Of a DNA stretch of 38,930 nucleotides, positions 25,393-32,649 are shown in pieces. A model generated the notes under the pieces. The model saw only the letters and a program-made list of their open reading frames with translations. It did not search any database and was not told where the DNA came from. The translations under genes and the position numbers were made by a program. Origin of the DNA: Acidobacterium sp. (GTDB lineage: Bacteria > Acidobacteriota > Terriglobia > Terriglobales > Acidobacteriaceae); contig PMUI01000030.1 in NCBI GenBank assembly GCA_003166955.1, positions 1-38,930 on the forward strand, in the 5' to 3' direction. How positions within the stretch are numbered: position 1 is the stretch's first letter; every line of letters starts with the position of its first letter.

Positions 25393-25680
25393 TCAAAGTG
25401 TGGGAGTGTACAACGTACCCGATACAAGCGCGACGACAGAGATCATGTCGTACAGATAGGTGTTGCCGTCGCCGTTATTGTCGCTCAGGATGTTGCCGGC
25501 CTGGTCGTAGGAAGGAACACCCGGGCCGCCATTGATCTGGTTGCTGGCATTGTAGGTCAGCGGCTGAGGGTTTGCCGGGAGGCACGCTGAAAGTCCGCCC
25601 GATCCGGATTGAAAAGCGCTCGCGGCGGCTTCCTGACTGGTTCTGTTGCCGACCGGAGGCCATGAGTCTGGGGCGCAATT
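25393..25680 (-). pseudogene. Rhs/YD-repeat protein fragment
   Basis: The minus-strand frame contains PPVGNRTSQ, LTYNASNQI and YDQAGNILSDNNGDGNTYLYD, which are YD repeats as found in Rhs toxins and wall-associated proteins. Only about 80 residues remain, without signal, core-end motif (the usual ...YDPxxGRF) or toxin tip. Most likely a remnant from a lost or rearranged rhs gene. Confidence 0.6.
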
Positions 25681-25713
25681 GTCACCAGGCAAATGGCCTC
25701 GCGCAGAACACAC

Positions 25714-26024: not shown

Positions 26025-29000
26025 TTACTGTATTGCTGAAGTGGGAACCCCGAGTGAGGCTGACGCCTCCTGAGCAATGAGCACAAAACCCCTGGCCCGG
26101 GCGTCTTTGGCCAATCTCTGAAGCCGTGCGCGGCCCTCGCCGTGACTCGACCGTAACTCAATCTTTCCCAAAGCGAGGGACGCTTCCAGATACACCCGAA
26201 TAAGACCGAGTTTCAGGGCTTCCGCCATTGCCTCGCGGGCAGCGCTCTCGGCGTCGGCAGTTCTTTTCGAGGCCGCGAGCAGCCAGGCATTGTCTACTTG
26301 AAGCGAAAGTCCTCGGATGATTTCCGGCGTTTCCTTCCAAAGACGGAAGGCTTCGCCGATACTCTCTCGCGCCTCGCTTATGTTGCCCTGATCGAGCAAA
26401 GCTCTGGAGAGCAAGCCCTCGGCCGCAATCTCCTGAACGGGTTCCTTTTCTGTACGAAACTCCGCGAGGACAGTGCGTGCCAAAGCTTCCGCGTCTTTCA
26501 ATCTTCCGGAATCATAGGTCAGTTCCGCGAGCGCGAGCTGGGTCTCCGCGGCACTCCCCTTTTCTCCCAGCTGCTGCTGAATCGTCAGAGCCTGCTGCTC
26601 GGAGTCCAGCGCCTTTTTCGATTCGCCCTGCTGACGCCAGGCCTCTCCAGCGCTAACGAGGGTCAAGGCATAATTACTCTTCGCGCCAATCGCCTGCTGA
26701 ATCGCCATGGCCTTGCTGAATTGTTCGAGCGCGTCCGGAAGGTTGCCTTTCTCAGCCTGCACCTCGCCGATCGCCTGAAGGCATAAGGCCTCCGAACCCT
26801 TATGTCCTAACTCCGTCGATAACTTCAAGGTTGTCTTATAACTGGCGAGGGCTTCCGACATTCGGCCTTCGGCGCGAAGGAGATTCCCTGTGTTGCCTGT
26901 TACTACGACGATTCCATTCTTGTTCCCGGCCTCCTGATAACTCTTAAGCGCACGCGCGTACATTCTGCGCCCATTAACAAAGTCTCCTCGTCTGACATAA
27001 ATCACACCAAGGTTGACGAGTTCACTTCCCATTGACTTCTTATCGCCAGCTTGCTCCAGAATCGCCAGCGCCTGGCGATACAGTTTCTCGGCGGCGGCAT
27101 AGTCGCCCTGATTGAGAGGGATCTCGGCTGAGCTGTGAAGAGCCCGCGCCAGGCCGCCCCGATCCCCGGCATCGGCAAAGATCCGCCGGGCTTCCTCACA
27201 GGCAGCGCTTGCATGTTCGTTGTCTCCAAGATTGGCGAGAGCCCGGCACTCGGTGGTGCGGGCTCGTGCTACGAGCAGCTTCGCACCCAGATGATCGGCT
27301 TTCGTCGCGGCTCGGTCGGCTGAATCGCGGCGCAGCTTGTCGTCCCCCAGCGACGCTGCTGCGTCTGCCATTGCCAGATCGACACCGGGATCGGTCCCGG
27401 CATAAGCGCTCTCGCGCGCCAGGGCAGCCAGCGTAGTCAGAGCCTCCTTGCCTTTGCCACTCGAGCTCTGGGCGCGAGCAAGACCTATTCCATAGTCCAG
27501 GCTGTCGGGAAAGAGAATGAAAAGGGTTTTGTAAGTGTCGATCGCCTTCGGCCAGTTTTTGCCGGCTTCGTAATAGCGAGCCTCCAGCATCAGATTGTCT
27601 TCGCGGGAGAGCCTGGCCGCCAAATCTAAAGCCCGTTTTGCCTCCTCCTGCGTTTGGTTGTCGTAACCAAGAGCCTGCCATGCCAGGGCCAGCGCGGAGT
27701 GAGCGAAGGGGTACGAAGGGTCGGCAATGACAGCACGGGCGAGTAAGTCCCGGGCGCTCAGGGAGTCGAAGGTACGAAACCTGATCAGACCCTGAGAGTA
27801 AAGCTGCATCGCCTCTGGATTCGAGGCCACCGAAGCTTGAATTGCCTGCGCCTCGAGGGCGGAAACAGGCGAGAGGCCCAATCGCTCCCGTAACCGCGAC
27901 CCGGTTCGAGAGACGAGGTCAGGTAACTCCGCCTCGGTGCTCATCTCTGCGACCGTGGCGATGGTGTCTTTGGTGGCTGCATTCTCGAGTCTGAGATTCA
28001 GGCGAATCTGGCCGCCACTCTCTTTTCCGGAATCCATGTAGGAGCCGAGCACAACAAAATCGGAGCCAAGGTTCCTGCGAATCCGATCGAGCACATCAGG
28101 CGCAACGCTCTCCATGTCGGACAGCCCAAGGTCGATCCTGGTGCGCGCGACCGTCTCGCCGGGAACTGTCCGCAATTCTTCGCCCGCCGCGAGCTGCTTT
28201 TCCAGCACCTCGGAGAGGGCAGTCGACACCCACGCAGTATCTGCGCGGTTTGAAAGATTGTTGAAGCCCAAAATAGCCAGTGCCGGACGTACGTGAACCT
28301 GAGCGGCGTTCGGCTGAGGCCGGCTGACGACTTGTCTGGAAGCTCGATGTTCTTCCCACGCGGCCAAACCACCGATCACCGCGAGGGCGACCCCGATGGC
28401 GGCCGCCGATTCCCTGTGACGGCGCAGGAATCTCGCTCCACGATAGGCGACGGTAGGCTGGCGGGCCGTGACGCGCTTGCCCGTCCGCAGGCGCTCGATA
28501 TCATCCGACAGGGCCGCCGCCGAGCTATAGCGATTCTGGGGCTCCTTACGCAGGGCCTTCATCACAATGGCGTCCAGATCGCCGTGCAGCCGCCTGCGCA
28601 ACTCGCCTGGAAGCAGACCGCGTGCTTTGCTCACCTGCTCGGGAGTCAGCGCAGTTTCGATTCCGCGTGACACTGGAATTTCCGTCCTCGTAACGGCGGT
28701 ACTGGGTTTTTCCACCTCGTCGTCGCAAATGGCACGCTCCACTTCCAGCGGCGATTCGCCGCAGCGATAAGGCCGATGACCGCTCATCAGTTCGTAGAGG
28801 AGCACGCCGAGCGAATAAATATCGCTTGCTCTGGTGATGGAGTGACCCCGCACCTGCTCCGGGCTGGCGTACTCCAGGGTCATCGGCCGAATGTTGGTTC
28901 GGGTGACCAGCGCGGTCTGGTGAAGATCGGGATTAAGCAGCTTGGCGATGCCAAAATCCAGCAGGCGGGGAACCCCTTCTTTGGTGACGAGAATGTTTGC

Positions 29001-29615
29001 CGGCTTGAGATCGCGATGAATCACCTCCTTTTCGTGGGCATAATGCACCGCAGAGCAGATGGCCCGAAACAGGTCGAGGCGGGCCTCAATCGGGAGCTCG
29101 TGCTGGTCGCAGTACCGGTCGACAGGCAGGCCCTCAACATAGTCCATTACCAGGTAAGGCAGGCCGTCCGCGGTGCTGCCGCCGTCGAGAAGCCGGACAA
29201 TATAAGGATGGTCCAGCGCCGCTAACGTCTGCCTCTCATTGCGAAAACGTCGATAGATCTCCTCTGCGTTGGGGCCTGGCCGGACCATCTTGATGGCGAC
29301 AGTTTTTCGAAAATCCTGGTCGTCTCGTTCTGCAAGATAGACGACCGCCATCCCTCCCTGTCCGATCATGCGCACGATGCGCCAGGCTCCGACGCGCTTC
29401 CCGGCCATGACATCCATTCCGAACGTGAGCAGGTTGGCGGCCGGAGAGTTTTCGAGCAGGCTGTCGGCGTCCTCGTAGTGCGAGGCCAGGGATTCAATCT
29501 CGGCCCGAAGCGCGCTGTCTTCCCCGCAGGCCTCGCGAATGAAATCCCTGCGCATCCCGGGGTCCTGTTCCAGAGCGAGAGCCAATATCTCCCTGACTCT
29601 TTCCCACTCGGGCAT
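26025..29615 (-). CDS. Ser/Thr protein kinase with FlgO/CsgG-like domain and TPR array
   Basis: 1196 residues. A short helical N-terminus (1-65) leads to a complete kinase domain: glycine loop GQGGMAVVY (85-93), Lys109, HRDLKPAN (200-207), DFG (220-222), SPEQ (251-254). One membrane span (about 404-420) separates it from an outer part. Residues about 440-590 (PALAILGFNNLS, SDFVVLGSYMDSG, IRLNLRLENA) resemble the FlgO/TolB-N-like fold, and about 600-1190 are TPR-like helical repeats (YAAAEKLYRQALAILEQAGD and similar). The ATG lies two bases after the ECF sigma stop and its ribosome site GGAGGG is inside that gene, so the two are translationally coupled. The outer TPRs may sense a protein partner and the inner kinase may act on the sigma factor (inference from known ECF-kinase pairs). 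Confidence 0.93.
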   Translation of the reverse strand: MPEWERVREILALALEQDPGMRRDFIREACGEDSALRAEIESLASHYEDADSLLENSPAANLLTFGMDVMAGKRVGAWRIVRMIGQGGMAVVYLAERDDQDFRKTVAIKMVRPGPNAEEIYRRFRNERQTLAALDHPYIVRLLDGGSTADGLPYLVMDYVEGLPVDRYCDQHELPIEARLDLFRAICSAVHYAHEKEVIHRDLKPANILVTKEGVPRLLDFGIAKLLNPDLHQTALVTRTNIRPMTLEYASPEQVRGHSITRASDIYSLGVLLYELMSGHRPYRCGESPLEVERAICDDEVEKPSTAVTRTEIPVSRGIETALTPEQVSKARGLLPGELRRRLHGDLDAIVMKALRKEPQNRYSSAAALSDDIERLRTGKRVTARQPTVAYRGARFLRRHRESAAAIGVALAVIGGLAAWEEHRASRQVVSRPQPNAAQVHVRPALAILGFNNLSNRADTAWVSTALSEVLEKQLAAGEELRTVPGETVARTRIDLGLSDMESVAPDVLDRIRRNLGSDFVVLGSYMDSGKESGGQIRLNLRLENAATKDTIATVAEMSTEAELPDLVSRTGSRLRERLGLSPVSALEAQAIQASVASNPEAMQLYSQGLIRFRTFDSLSARDLLARAVIADPSYPFAHSALALAWQALGYDNQTQEEAKRALDLAARLSREDNLMLEARYYEAGKNWPKAIDTYKTLFILFPDSLDYGIGLARAQSSSGKGKEALTTLAALARESAYAGTDPGVDLAMADAAASLGDDKLRRDSADRAATKADHLGAKLLVARARTTECRALANLGDNEHASAACEEARRIFADAGDRGGLARALHSSAEIPLNQGDYAAAEKLYRQALAILEQAGDKKSMGSELVNLGVIYVRRGDFVNGRRMYARALKSYQEAGNKNGIVVVTGNTGNLLRAEGRMSEALASYKTTLKLSTELGHKGSEALCLQAIGEVQAEKGNLPDALEQFSKAMAIQQAIGAKSNYALTLVSAGEAWRQQGESKKALDSEQQALTIQQQLGEKGSAAETQLALAELTYDSGRLKDAEALARTVLAEFRTEKEPVQEIAAEGLLSRALLDQGNISEARESIGEAFRLWKETPEIIRGLSLQVDNAWLLAASKRTADAESAAREAMAEALKLGLIRVYLEASLALGKIELRSSHGEGRARLQRLAKDARARGFVLIAQEASASLGVPTSAIQ

Positions 29616-29617
29616 TC

Positions 29618-30193
29618 TTACTGCCCTCCAGCAAGTTCCCTGGCCAGCCACGCCTTCGCCACGTTCCAATGGCGCTTCACCGTTGCCGGAGAGATTTCAA
29701 GAACTCCGGCCGCCTCTTCAATGCTGAGGCCCCCGAAGAAGCGCAGCTCAACCAGACGAGCCTGCTGCTCGTCCAGCGCAGCTAGTTTGACTAACGCCTC
29801 GTCCAGGGCAACTACGTCGGCGGGGCGCGCTTTGCTCGGGACGATCACTTCTTCCAGAAATACCCGGGGACTATTTCCGCCGCGCTTGGCGGACTGGTGA
29901 CGTCGGCTGTAGTCGAGCAGGATTCTCCGCATCAGCTGCGACGCAGCCCCCATGAACTCATTGCGATTCTTCCAGAGGAGCCCCTGCTGATCGGCCAGAC
30001 GAAGATACACTTCGTGCACCAGCGCCGTAGCTTGCAGCGTATGGTTGCCGCGCTCCTGCTGCATATAATGTCCGGCGAGCCGGCGCAGCTCGGAGTACAG
30101 CAGCGATGTCCATTCCGCGGACGCTAATTCATCACCCTGTCCGGGTGCGGCGCCGTTTCCCGAATCTCCGGCCGTCTTATGCAATGGAGCCAT
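29618..30193 (-). CDS. ECF sigma factor (acidobacterial TIGR02999-like), kinase-linked
   Basis: 191 residues from the ATG at 30193 (G-rich run upstream); the longer frame has no domain. Region 2 is present (LYSELRRLAGHYMQQERG, ALVHEVYLRLA, FMGAASQLMRRILLDYSRRH). Region 4 is the helix-turn-helix ELRFFGGLSIEEAAGVLEIS followed by PATVKRHW. It directs RNA polymerase to a small regulon. In region 2.2 the usual acidic D-A-E-D before LVxEV is QATA (Thr56), a loss of charge known from ECFs that are switched on by threonine phosphorylation. No anti-sigma gene is near; the next gene is a kinase with a two-base gap. Confidence 0.92.
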   Translation of the reverse strand: MAPLHKTAGDSGNGAAPGQGDELASAEWTSLLYSELRRLAGHYMQQERGNHTLQATALVHEVYLRLADQQGLLWKNRNEFMGAASQLMRRILLDYSRRHQSAKRGGNSPRVFLEEVIVPSKARPADVVALDEALVKLAALDEQQARLVELRFFGGLSIEEAAGVLEISPATVKRHWNVAKAWLARELAGGQ

Positions 30194-30384
30194 GCAGCCC
30201 CCCACGACCCGCGGGGTATTCTCCCCGCAGTTCCGACAACATCCATACGAAGTGCGCCAGCCGAATCGGCCGAAGGGGATTGCGGCCAGACCCAAAATGT
30301 CGCTCGCCACCAGGGTTCTCTTCCGGGGGAAGGGCGCAGCCGGATGAGAATCCGACACCGTTCCCGCATTCGGCTCCTCGGCAC

Positions 30385-30457
30385 GAAAAATTTCTCAACT
30401 ACGTGAGCCTTTTTGCGCGGGTTTTGCGCATTATAGCCGACCACTGCAAGCCGCGGA
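30385..30457 (+). repeat. Direct repeat, copy A
   Basis: Starts GAAAAAT and contains CGTGAGCCTTTTTGC, GGTTTTGCGCATT and TAGCCGACC; about 85 percent identical by eye to copy B across the core (30402-30457). Copy and spacing suggest a mobile repeat or a paired regulatory site. Read on the minus strand both copies would encode M-R-K-T-x-A-K-R-L-T, which explains a spurious repeated frame. Confidence 0.65.
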
Positions 30458-30619
30458 AGGCATACGTCACAGGAAGTTCATCTGTGTGCCGGTGAATCTG
30501 CGCCGAGACCGGAGCATTCGCAATCCGGGATATTCGGTGCGGCTGGTGGCGTTTGGAATACCGCTTGGCGCAAATTTGATCCGTCGAATTGAGTGCCAGA
30601 TGGCTCCGTGCTCCCTGAC

Positions 30620-30697
30620 TGAAAAAATAATTCTGCAGCGTGAGCCTTTTTGCCCCGGTTTTGCGCATTCTAGCCGACCCCAGGCAAGCGACGGAAA
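30620..30697 (+). repeat. Direct repeat, copy B
   Basis: Same orientation as copy A, 237 bases farther on, also preceded by a GAAAAAA run. The core CGTGAGCCTTTTTGC ... GGTTTTGCGCATTCTAGCC is conserved. It ends about 70 bases before the YCF48-like gene. Confidence 0.65.
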
Positions 30698-30765: not shown

Positions 30766-32649
30766 ATGTCACGCTCACACCGCAGGACGAATCTCTGCCT
30801 GGCCATCGTGCTGGCCGCGGCGTCGCTTCAGGCCATTGCCCAGCAACCGAAGAGTTCCCCCAGAAGCCGTGCCGCCGCCCCCGCGCAGGCCGCATCAACC
30901 TCGTCCCCTTCCCAGGTCAAAGCCATCTGGGAGCCGATGAATTATCCCGACGACGTCACGCTGGAGGACGTTTTCTTCGTCAACCAGCAGGTTGGCTGGG
31001 TTGCCGGCAAGGGTACGGGGGGATTCATTATGCATACCAGCGACGGAGGCAAAAACTGGGAGATCCAGGTCGGAGATCCCCACTCCAACGACGCCAACAT
31101 CACCGATATGCATTTCCTCGATGCCGTTCATGGCTGGGCCGTGCAGGGCGACCAGCTGATACGAACCACCGACGGCAAGACCTGGCAAACCATTGGCCCC
31201 TTTGCGCCCAACAATCCTCTGGCGGAATACCGGTTCATCTCCCTCCAGGACGGCTTTGAGGCGGCCGGATATTTCAGCGGCTCGACGATTTTCGCGACCC
31301 ACGACGGGGGCCGCAGCTGGAAATCCGTCTACCAGTGCCAGACCACGCTGCAGGTGAACGGGCTGGTACGAAATACAGCTTGTTTCTTCCACGACCTCGC
31401 CTTCCCATCCGCACAGGTCGGTTACGCGGTGGGAGGAGCCTTCGACGGTTCCTGGGCCGCCATCGCCAAGACCACCGACGGTGGGGCGAGCTGGAAAGTC
31501 ATCTTCGCAACCACCGATATGGCCGCCGTTTCCACGGCATTCTTCACCGACGAGAACAACGGTGTGATTCGTCTCCAGGATAAGAGAGTTTTCATCACCT
31601 CCGACGGCGGTCAATCCTGGCAGGGCGCAACCGGATCCGCCGAGGCGACCATAAAATTCGCCGATCCGACGGTGGGATGGTCCTGCGTCCTCCAGTACGG
31701 CCCAGCTTGCAGTTACACCCTGGATGGCGGTAAGAGCTGGACCTCTCGCAGCTTCAACCTTCCCGCCGACATTTACGGCTACAGCGTGCCGCGGCGCGAC
31801 CAGGTCTATCTGGTTGGCGACCACGGCATGATCTATCGCTACCGCATCGTTCCGGCCAGCTACACGGCCCAGGGAATTGTCGACGCCCCCCTGGTGCCAG
31901 CTTACGGCGGGGCACTCAATGACCAGCTGGACCAGATGCGCTCCCACTGCAAAGAAATACAGGACAAACTCGGCGCTATCGCCAGCCAAAGCTATCCCCC
32001 GCCTCAGCCCCGTTTCCCCACTGCGCATCTGATGACCGCCGCGTACGAGACATCCGAACCCGAGCCCCAGAGCTTTACTCAGGACACCAGCGCGCAGACC
32101 CGGCCCCAGGGCTTTGCCCAGGACACCAGTTCACAGGCCGCCATTGCCGCTCCCGCAAGCCCGGCCATGCAGAGCTGCTGCGCCACCCAGTTGCAGAGCC
32201 TGCAAACCTCGGTCAGTTCCTTCTCTCAGCAAGTGCCGGCATTCAGCGGCCAGTTCAGAAATCTCAACCTGCTCTTTGTCGGCATGAACATGCTCAACAA
32301 TCTGGTCAGCCAGGCCCATAGCATTCAGGCCGCATTCGTCGCACTCAAGCAGGCTCCCAACCTCCAGGCGGCCACCACCGCACTGCAGAATCTCTCCACG
32401 CAGGTCGAGGGCACCAGCCAGACCCTCTCCAGTGGCTTCCAGAATCTGACCCTGAGCGGCGCTCCGTCGGCGAGCACCATCACCAACATGGCGGGAACCG
32501 CGGCTGCCGCCCCAACACCGGCAACGCCCGGCGCGACCCCGGGCGCGCCGGCCAATGGAACCGCCAACACGCAGTCGACGGCTTCGAAAGCGGCGAACAG
32601 CACGGCGCAGAAGGCCAAACAGAAACTGAAGAGCATGATTCCCTTCTAG
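30766..32649 (+). CDS. Exported YCF48/BNR-repeat protein
   Basis: 627 residues. A signal peptide (about 1-26, cut after AIA) precedes a seven-bladed propeller-like region (about 50-360) with recurring S/T-D-G-G-x-S/N-W motifs: TSDGGKNW, TTDGKTW, THDGGRSW, TTDGGASW, TSDGGQSW, TLDGGKSW. This is the YCF48/BNR pattern of photosystem II assembly factors and many secreted proteins. The C-terminal 220 residues are rich in Ala, Gln, Thr and Pro with helical stretches (LQSLQTSVSSFSQQ) and two Cys in MQSCCAT, ending KQKLKSMIPF. The ATG has GGGAGGA seven bases upstream. First of four rightward genes for exported proteins; a role in an envelope assembly is suggested, its nature unknown. Confidence 0.88.
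   Translation: MSRSHRRTNLCLAIVLAAASLQAIAQQPKSSPRSRAAAPAQAASTSSPSQVKAIWEPMNYPDDVTLEDVFFVNQQVGWVAGKGTGGFIMHTSDGGKNWEIQVGDPHSNDANITDMHFLDAVHGWAVQGDQLIRTTDGKTWQTIGPFAPNNPLAEYRFISLQDGFEAAGYFSGSTIFATHDGGRSWKSVYQCQTTLQVNGLVRNTACFFHDLAFPSAQVGYAVGGAFDGSWAAIAKTTDGGASWKVIFATTDMAAVSTAFFTDENNGVIRLQDKRVFITSDGGQSWQGATGSAEATIKFADPTVGWSCVLQYGPACSYTLDGGKSWTSRSFNLPADIYGYSVPRRDQVYLVGDHGMIYRYRIVPASYTAQGIVDAPLVPAYGGALNDQLDQMRSHCKEIQDKLGAIASQSYPPPQPRFPTAHLMTAAYETSEPEPQSFTQDTSAQTRPQGFAQDTSSQAAIAAPASPAMQSCCATQLQSLQTSVSSFSQQVPAFSGQFRNLNLLFVGMNMLNNLVSQAHSIQAAFVALKQAPNLQAATTALQNLSTQVEGTSQTLSSGFQNLTLSGAPSASTITNMAGTAAAAPTPATPGATPGAPANGTANTQSTASKAANSTAQKAKQKLKSMIPF

Follow-up and report, generated by a model that had tools for sequence, protein, structure and literature searches.

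ECF sigma factors of group ECF43 have been described as lacking the acids of the DAED motif and carrying instead the consensus QTTA, with the threonine present in 88% of them; their genes lie close to that of a Hanks kinase, and phosphorylation of the threonine by this kinase activates them (PMC13147305, PMC8999054, PMC8103513). The motif is STTA in EcfP of Vibrio parahaemolyticus and QATE in EcfK of Xanthomonas citri (PMC8999054, PMC13147305). EcfP alone is reported to be inactive (PMC8999054), and EcfK is activated via T51 or via T106 in the linker, such that a T51A variant alone still works (PMC13147305). PknS, which phosphorylates EcfK and for which there is a structure (PDB 9EED), combines a kinase domain, a transmembrane segment and periplasmic TPRs, and the outer domains of ECF43 kinases are said to be of a wide variety (PMC13147305). 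Other kinase-linked groups, namely ECF59, 61, 62, 217 and 283, are described as keeping a charged DAED-like motif (PMC8999054), whereas a second review gives serine as the phosphosite of ECF59 instead (PMC8103513); under either account a neutral motif with a threonine points to ECF43.

The window analysed here, a stretch of 38,930 nucleotides from Acidobacterium sp., contains an ECF sigma factor gene directly followed by the gene of a transmembrane Ser/Thr kinase (Table 1). The sigma factor ORF runs on the minus strand from an ATG at 30191-30193 to a stop at 29618-29620, and its codons 54 to 57, from 30034 down to 30023, are CAA GCT ACG GCG, giving Q-A-T-A; region 2.2 reads LQATALVHEVYLRL, with the threonine, the predicted phosphosite, at position 56 (codon 30026-30028). 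The kinase ATG is found at 29613-29615, leaving a gap of 2 bases to the sigma stop. The initial annotation of this DNA had pointed to QATA with Thr56 in place of DAED, to a kinase starting two bases past the sigma gene and to the lack of a nearby anti-sigma gene. The codons and coordinates bear out the first two of these, and the third holds as far as the eight scanned ORFs of the 23.5-36.5 kb region go, none of which was seen to be an anti-sigma gene; these ORFs are the sigma factor, the kinase and six others, with Pfam matches to YCF48/BNR, Coa1, OmpA, DUF433 and a response regulator, and one with no match.

Table 1. Positions of the sigma factor and kinase genes, their domains and the upstream features within the window
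Feature	Position	Strand	Basis or remark
ECF sigma factor, 191 aa, TIGR02999/PF07638	29618..30193	-	ORF and profile matches
Region 2.2 tetrad Q54-A55-T56-A57, DAED position	30023..30034	-	Sequence and family alignment
Transmembrane Ser/Thr kinase, 1196 aa	26025..29615	-	ORF and Pfam
N-terminal helical domain, kinase residues 1-60, proposed sigma-coupling module	29436..29615	-	Profile searches, PknS alignment, AlphaFold2 model
Hanks-type kinase domain	28506..29378	-	Pfam; catalytic Lys and both Asp intact
TM helix, about residues 406-420	28356-28400	-	Hydrophobic stretch, by eye only
Outer alpha/beta subdomain, FlgO/CadC-like at most	27876..28298, approximate limits	-	Low-confidence model
Periplasmic TPR array	26106..27818, approximate limits	-	Pfam TPR families and model/fold search
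Upstream repeat copy A, core 30403-30441	30373..30442	-	Putative regulatory element for the sigma-kinase operon
Upstream repeat copy B, core 30640-30678	30610..30679	-	Sequence comparison
Divergent YCF48/BNR-repeat protein gene, apparent signal peptide	30766..32649	+	Pfam; start and signal by eye

The sigma factor scores 186.8 bits against TIGR02999 (curated cut-off 126.15), which makes it a member of a family that is defined by sequence and not by mechanism and from which it was not found to differ, and 173.9 bits against PF07638 (cut-off 21.1); the kinase matches Pkinase of Pfam with an E-value of 2.8e-45. With an acid-free region 2.2, a threonine at the third place, an adjoining Hanks-type kinase and no anti-sigma gene seen, the pair matches the published description of ECF43, and judged by these sequence features it is an ordinary, well-formed member of the ECF43-type kinase/sigma switch. 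It differs from ECF59, 61, 62, 217 and 283 in having QATA with a threonine, and would be an acidobacterial example of a mechanism that has been reported from proteobacteria.

When kinase residues 1-413 were compared with all PDB sequences the best match was PknS (9EED, E 2e-51), aligned over residues 3-375 and thus including the N-terminal part of the window kinase. As in EcfK and PknS the sigma gene adjoins a Hanks kinase and the threonine has the same place in the motif; with an offset of +5, R33, Q49, T51 and H55 of EcfK correspond to R38, Q54, T56 and H60 in the window, whereas Y29 and E52 fall on S34 and A57, there being no acid at 57. The window kinase shares with PknS an N-terminal extension, the kinase domain, a transmembrane segment (by eye) and periplasmic TPRs, but its outer part is longer, an alpha/beta subdomain preceding the TPRs, and in contrast to the EcfK/PknS locus none of the eight scanned ORFs is a T6SS gene. 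The likeness to EcfP and PknT, as far as their description goes, lies in the neutral motif (STTA against QATA), the threonine at its third place, the nearby kinase and the lack of a reported anti-sigma factor. The analogy with EcfP/PknT on which the initial annotation was built is therefore supported, by the agreement of motif, threonine, kinase and lack of an anti-sigma gene with ECF43, by PknS being the best PDB match and by the natural variation described below. For mapping Thr56 onto a solved ECF structure by sequence, SigK was the sole match (E 0.022), and its alignment began at residue 72.

By analogy with EcfP and EcfK we regard it as probable that these genes form a phospho-switch of the ECF43 type that operates via Thr56. 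The sigma factor would bind core RNA polymerase poorly because its region 2.2 lacks the acidic residues for contact with the beta' subunit; the membrane kinase may sense an outside signal through its TPR-bearing outer part, would recognise the co-encoded sigma factor by docking through its N-terminal helical domain and would then phosphorylate Thr56, as its counterparts do in the two described systems, the phosphate supplying the missing charge such that transcription could start.

The initial annotation treated both the missing acid and the kinase as out of the ordinary, and neither view can be maintained. A set of 256 distinct TIGR02999-type sigma factors was gathered from Acidobacteriota, Planctomycetota and three plasmid records, with identical rows counted once and L012 left out of the counts as it is on the same contig as L080; most loci come from the top of score-ranked lists and were not drawn at random, so the proportions describe this sample only. 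There is no acid at any of positions 54-57 in 217 of the 256, the commonest tetrads being QPTA (85), QATA (46, and so second) and QTTA (45), and position 56 is Thr in 240, Ser in 6 and another residue in 10. An acid-free region 2.2 is therefore the rule in the large known family TIGR02999/PF07638 and not an anomaly, albeit not a universal one, as 22 of the 246 members with Thr or Ser at 56 have an acid at 57. A kinase match is found within 1.5 kb of the sigma gene in 210 of the 256 relatives, downstream on the same strand in 192, divergent and upstream in 15 and otherwise placed in 3. As for the kinase, its general plan is that of PknS, and ECF43 kinases reportedly have diverse outer domains. 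The FlgO-like domain plus TPR array that had been proposed for its outer half is in part confirmed: Pfam recognises the TPRs, and the FlgO-like part is only plausible, with no Pfam match to FlgO in the outer part up to E 10. The outer part of relative L014 gives a weak match to LpoB, below the cut-off, and a fold search with a model that is poor in the alpha/beta subdomain (mostly under pLDDT 60) returned TPR proteins and CadC, the latter with its periplasmic domain. The second-best NCBIfam match of the kinase (26025-29615) is to antiphage_MADS6, the kinase MAD6 of a defence system, at 166.7 bits against a cut-off of 460, and its best stretch begins within the N-terminal domain.

The family is common in Acidobacteriota, being present in at least 124 of 297 sampled genomes, and the nearest named sigma/kinase pairs are on plasmids of Pseudoalteromonas, Eleftheria and Paludisphaera; a literature search on the word TIGR02999 found no paper. 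The genome of the window contains six weaker ECF-like matches, four of which could be read at the motif and have kept the acids (DAED or similar), the motif of the other two being outside the coverage of the alignment. Beside three such weaker matches (L003, L005 and L006) there are ORFs with cysteine motifs which by eye resemble zinc anti-sigma factors. In 44 of the 256 relatives no kinase was found in the flank covered, which was mostly 1.5-2 kb, and Thr56 is kept in 40 of these. L095, L097, L117, L126, L143 and L157 are similar sigma factors (DHTLQPTALVHEAYMKL or nearly so) with Thr56 and no kinase match in flanks of 1.5-2 kb, and are candidates for control by a distant kinase. L051 (G058:C32:17616-18152), whose motif is QATD, lacks a kinase within 5 kb, and a copy of the kinase N-terminal domain discussed below is found on the same contig at 19.5 kb from it (G058:C32:37627-37794), the two being possibly a separated pair.

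If it is the charge of a phosphate at position 56 that matters, lineages that have lost Thr or Ser there could compensate with a fixed acid, and the family offers a test of this by natural variation. An Asp or Glu at position 54 is present in 7 of the 10 members without Thr/Ser56 against 10 of the 246 with it (Fisher p 1.6e-7); counting threonine only, the figures are 9 of 16 without Thr56 and 8 of 240 with it (p 2e-8). Among 169 other alignment columns examined as a control, column 56 was the one most strongly associated with an acid at 54 (p 2e-8), followed by column 34 (p 5e-4, uncorrected). An acid at 54 and the consensus Asp of column 34 were never seen together (0 of 89 against 17 of 165 without Asp34, p 5e-4, uncorrected). 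An acid at 57 is not tied to the loss of Thr/Ser56 (0 of 10 against 22 of 246). One relative, L094, is misaligned at the motif, and without it the exchange stands at 7 of 9 against 10 of 246. L071 and L198 are 73% identical and their exchange is probably one event; this pair aside, pairwise identity among the seven exchanged sequences does not exceed 49%. By parsimony on a weakly supported FastTree tree built without the motif columns, the Thr/Ser56 state changed 9 times and the acid-54 state 16 times. Over the starred branches the exchange went in the expected direction 1.8 times on average and in the opposite direction 0.0 times, with only 4 independent pairs, for which reason this test cannot reach significance. 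Taken as sequence evidence, the natural variation in TIGR02999 supports the charge model, and it names relatives in which the switch is perhaps locked on. L063, L071, L072, L124 and L309, five of the seven relatives with the exchange, still have a nearby kinase whose catalytic residues are intact, so the exchange does not simply end control by the kinase.

It is unlikely, in our judgement, that the kinase acts on the sigma factor at a decisive site in the linker or the N-terminal tail, leaving to Thr56 a role such as that of a helix cap. The precedent for such a site is EcfK itself, with its alternative of T51 or linker T106 and its active T51A variant (PMC13147305), and a structural role would also suit the retention of Thr56 in 40 of the 44 relatives for which the covered flank shows no kinase, but an exchange of threonine for an acid is not what would be expected of a capping residue. 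Moreover, unlike EcfK, the window sigma factor has Phe111, followed by Leu-Glu-Glu, at the place that corresponds to T106 with the offset of +5, and L012, L013, L014 and L062 have Phe or Tyr in this column, which over the family is Ser or Thr in 54% and Asp or Glu in 17%. If the +5 correspondence holds, which an indel in the linker would undo, the clade of the window would depend on Thr56 alone.

The N-terminal domain of the kinase is a candidate for recognition of the sigma factor. Pfam, searched up to E 10, returned no match for the 75-residue N-terminal piece, and an AlphaFold2 model from 6 sequences shows three fairly confident helices (3-15, 19-30 and 34-56) and a weak tail. PknS has an N-terminal extension of 83 residues, which is conserved among homologues in the Xanthomonadaceae and for which a function is considered possible; it gave no electron density in the crystal and is predicted to form three to four helices (PMC13147305). 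The domain was searched for in whole genomes with an alignment of 15 kinases that were chosen for adjoining TIGR02999 genes, and detection is therefore biased toward kinases next to a sigma gene. In the genome of the window it is present in 2 of 13 kinases (Pkinase matches, E up to 1e-15), and just two TIGR02999 matches exceed the cut-off there, each next to one of these two kinases. Of 61 genomes, this one and relatives, 32 have a TIGR02999 match (E up to 1e-20), and 28 of these also carry the domain; among the 29 others it was found in 1, as a weak match in a frame of 51 aa. Of all copies, 43 of 55 lie within 3 kb of a TIGR02999 match, and 5 of the other 12 are at most 500 bases from the start of a contig. 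In 59 genomes of Planctomycetota, among the matches listed, it is present in 18 of 19 with TIGR02999 and 0 of 40 without, and in these 19 the copy numbers of sigma factor and domain are correlated, again among the matches listed, with a Pearson coefficient of 0.97. Both sets combined give, among the matches listed, 46 of 51 genomes with TIGR02999 and 1 of 69 without.

As the domain tracks the sigma family across genomes we propose that it is a module that couples kinase and sigma factor, and predict that it binds the latter. We would tentatively go further, with slightly more doubt than confidence, and see in it a dedicated sigma-recognition module across phyla and in the relatives whose threonine at 56 has given way to a fixed acid at 54 "hard-wired" variants that escape or rewire the kinase switch. 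The domain would then be a simple genomic marker of sigma-coupled kinases, and if it docks the sigma factor, partners could be matched in genomes that have up to dozens of pairs. In the parts of PMC13147305, PMC8999054 and PMC8103513 that were covered, neither the exchange nor a sigma-linked N-terminal domain was found described beyond the remark on the Xanthomonadaceae.

The same correlation of 0.97 between sigma factor and domain copy numbers in the 19 Planctomycetota genomes, among the matches listed, sits poorly with the idea that the sigma factor is active unphosphorylated or is controlled by its amount, the main substrates of the kinase being others. So do the two-base gap, the adjacent kinase in 210 of 256 relatives and the published experiments on EcfP and EcfK (PMC13147305, PMC8999054), such that we consider it quite improbable, even if the 44 of 256 relatives with no kinase in the flank covered would be accounted for and ECF groups under transcriptional control are listed in one review (PMC8999054). 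That the N-terminal domain is instead an anti-sigma domain, holding the sigma factor until the kinase fires, is barely credible, for whilst it is helical in the model and tracks the sigma family, none of the 39 Foldseek matches of the model was significant and none was an anti-sigma factor, and EcfP on its own is reportedly inactive (PMC8999054).

The region that separates the sigma gene from the divergent gene contains two repeats of 70 bases each, 77% identical and 237 bases apart. Copies A and B are the only ones of the 39-base core in the genome of the window; a search for further copies gave none that was convincing, with one extra match at 3 mismatches against one for a reversed-pattern control, and another pattern search of this genome gave one match, copy A. 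Both copies recur in the sister genome G005, which has a third one 3.2 kb away, whilst a search that allowed up to 3 mismatches did not find the core in the 10 remaining genomes of the genus, nor did a slightly looser pattern find it in the other 199 of 200 sampled genomes of the family, a sample without G005. One copy is present at the orthologous locus L013, where it ends about 120 bases before the sigma gene. On the strand of the sigma gene five of the six copies show TTCCG or CTCCG and, with 17-18 bases counted from the hexamer, TAnAAT (TACATT in L013); this is a reading by eye, since a scan for sigma-70 promoters and terminators found nothing and a comparison with Rfam, up to E 1, was without a match. 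The third copy in G005 is without the TTCCG part. The repeat was also considered as coding sequence, either for a short peptide (MRKTxAKRLT) or within an ORF of 135 aa, but this was rejected because the frame has stops in L012 and L013.

With low confidence we take the repeat element to be part of the sigma-kinase operon's own control, which seems likelier than its being a target in front of the divergent gene. That the divergent YCF48/BNR gene is a target of the sigma factor is possible and unproven, and to call it one would be premature, as the divergent neighbour is a different gene at the related loci L012, L013 and L014. The third copy of the repeat (L012:2263-2301, which is G005 C285:14120-14158) lies between a gene for a cNMP-binding regulator and genes for DUF805 and OmpA proteins; it is similar to copy B past the core and thus would derive from a larger duplication. 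Downstream of the kinase gene, a minus-strand ORF at 25393-25713 resembles by eye the remnant of an RHS-repeat protein (...GNILSDNNGDGNTYLYD...).
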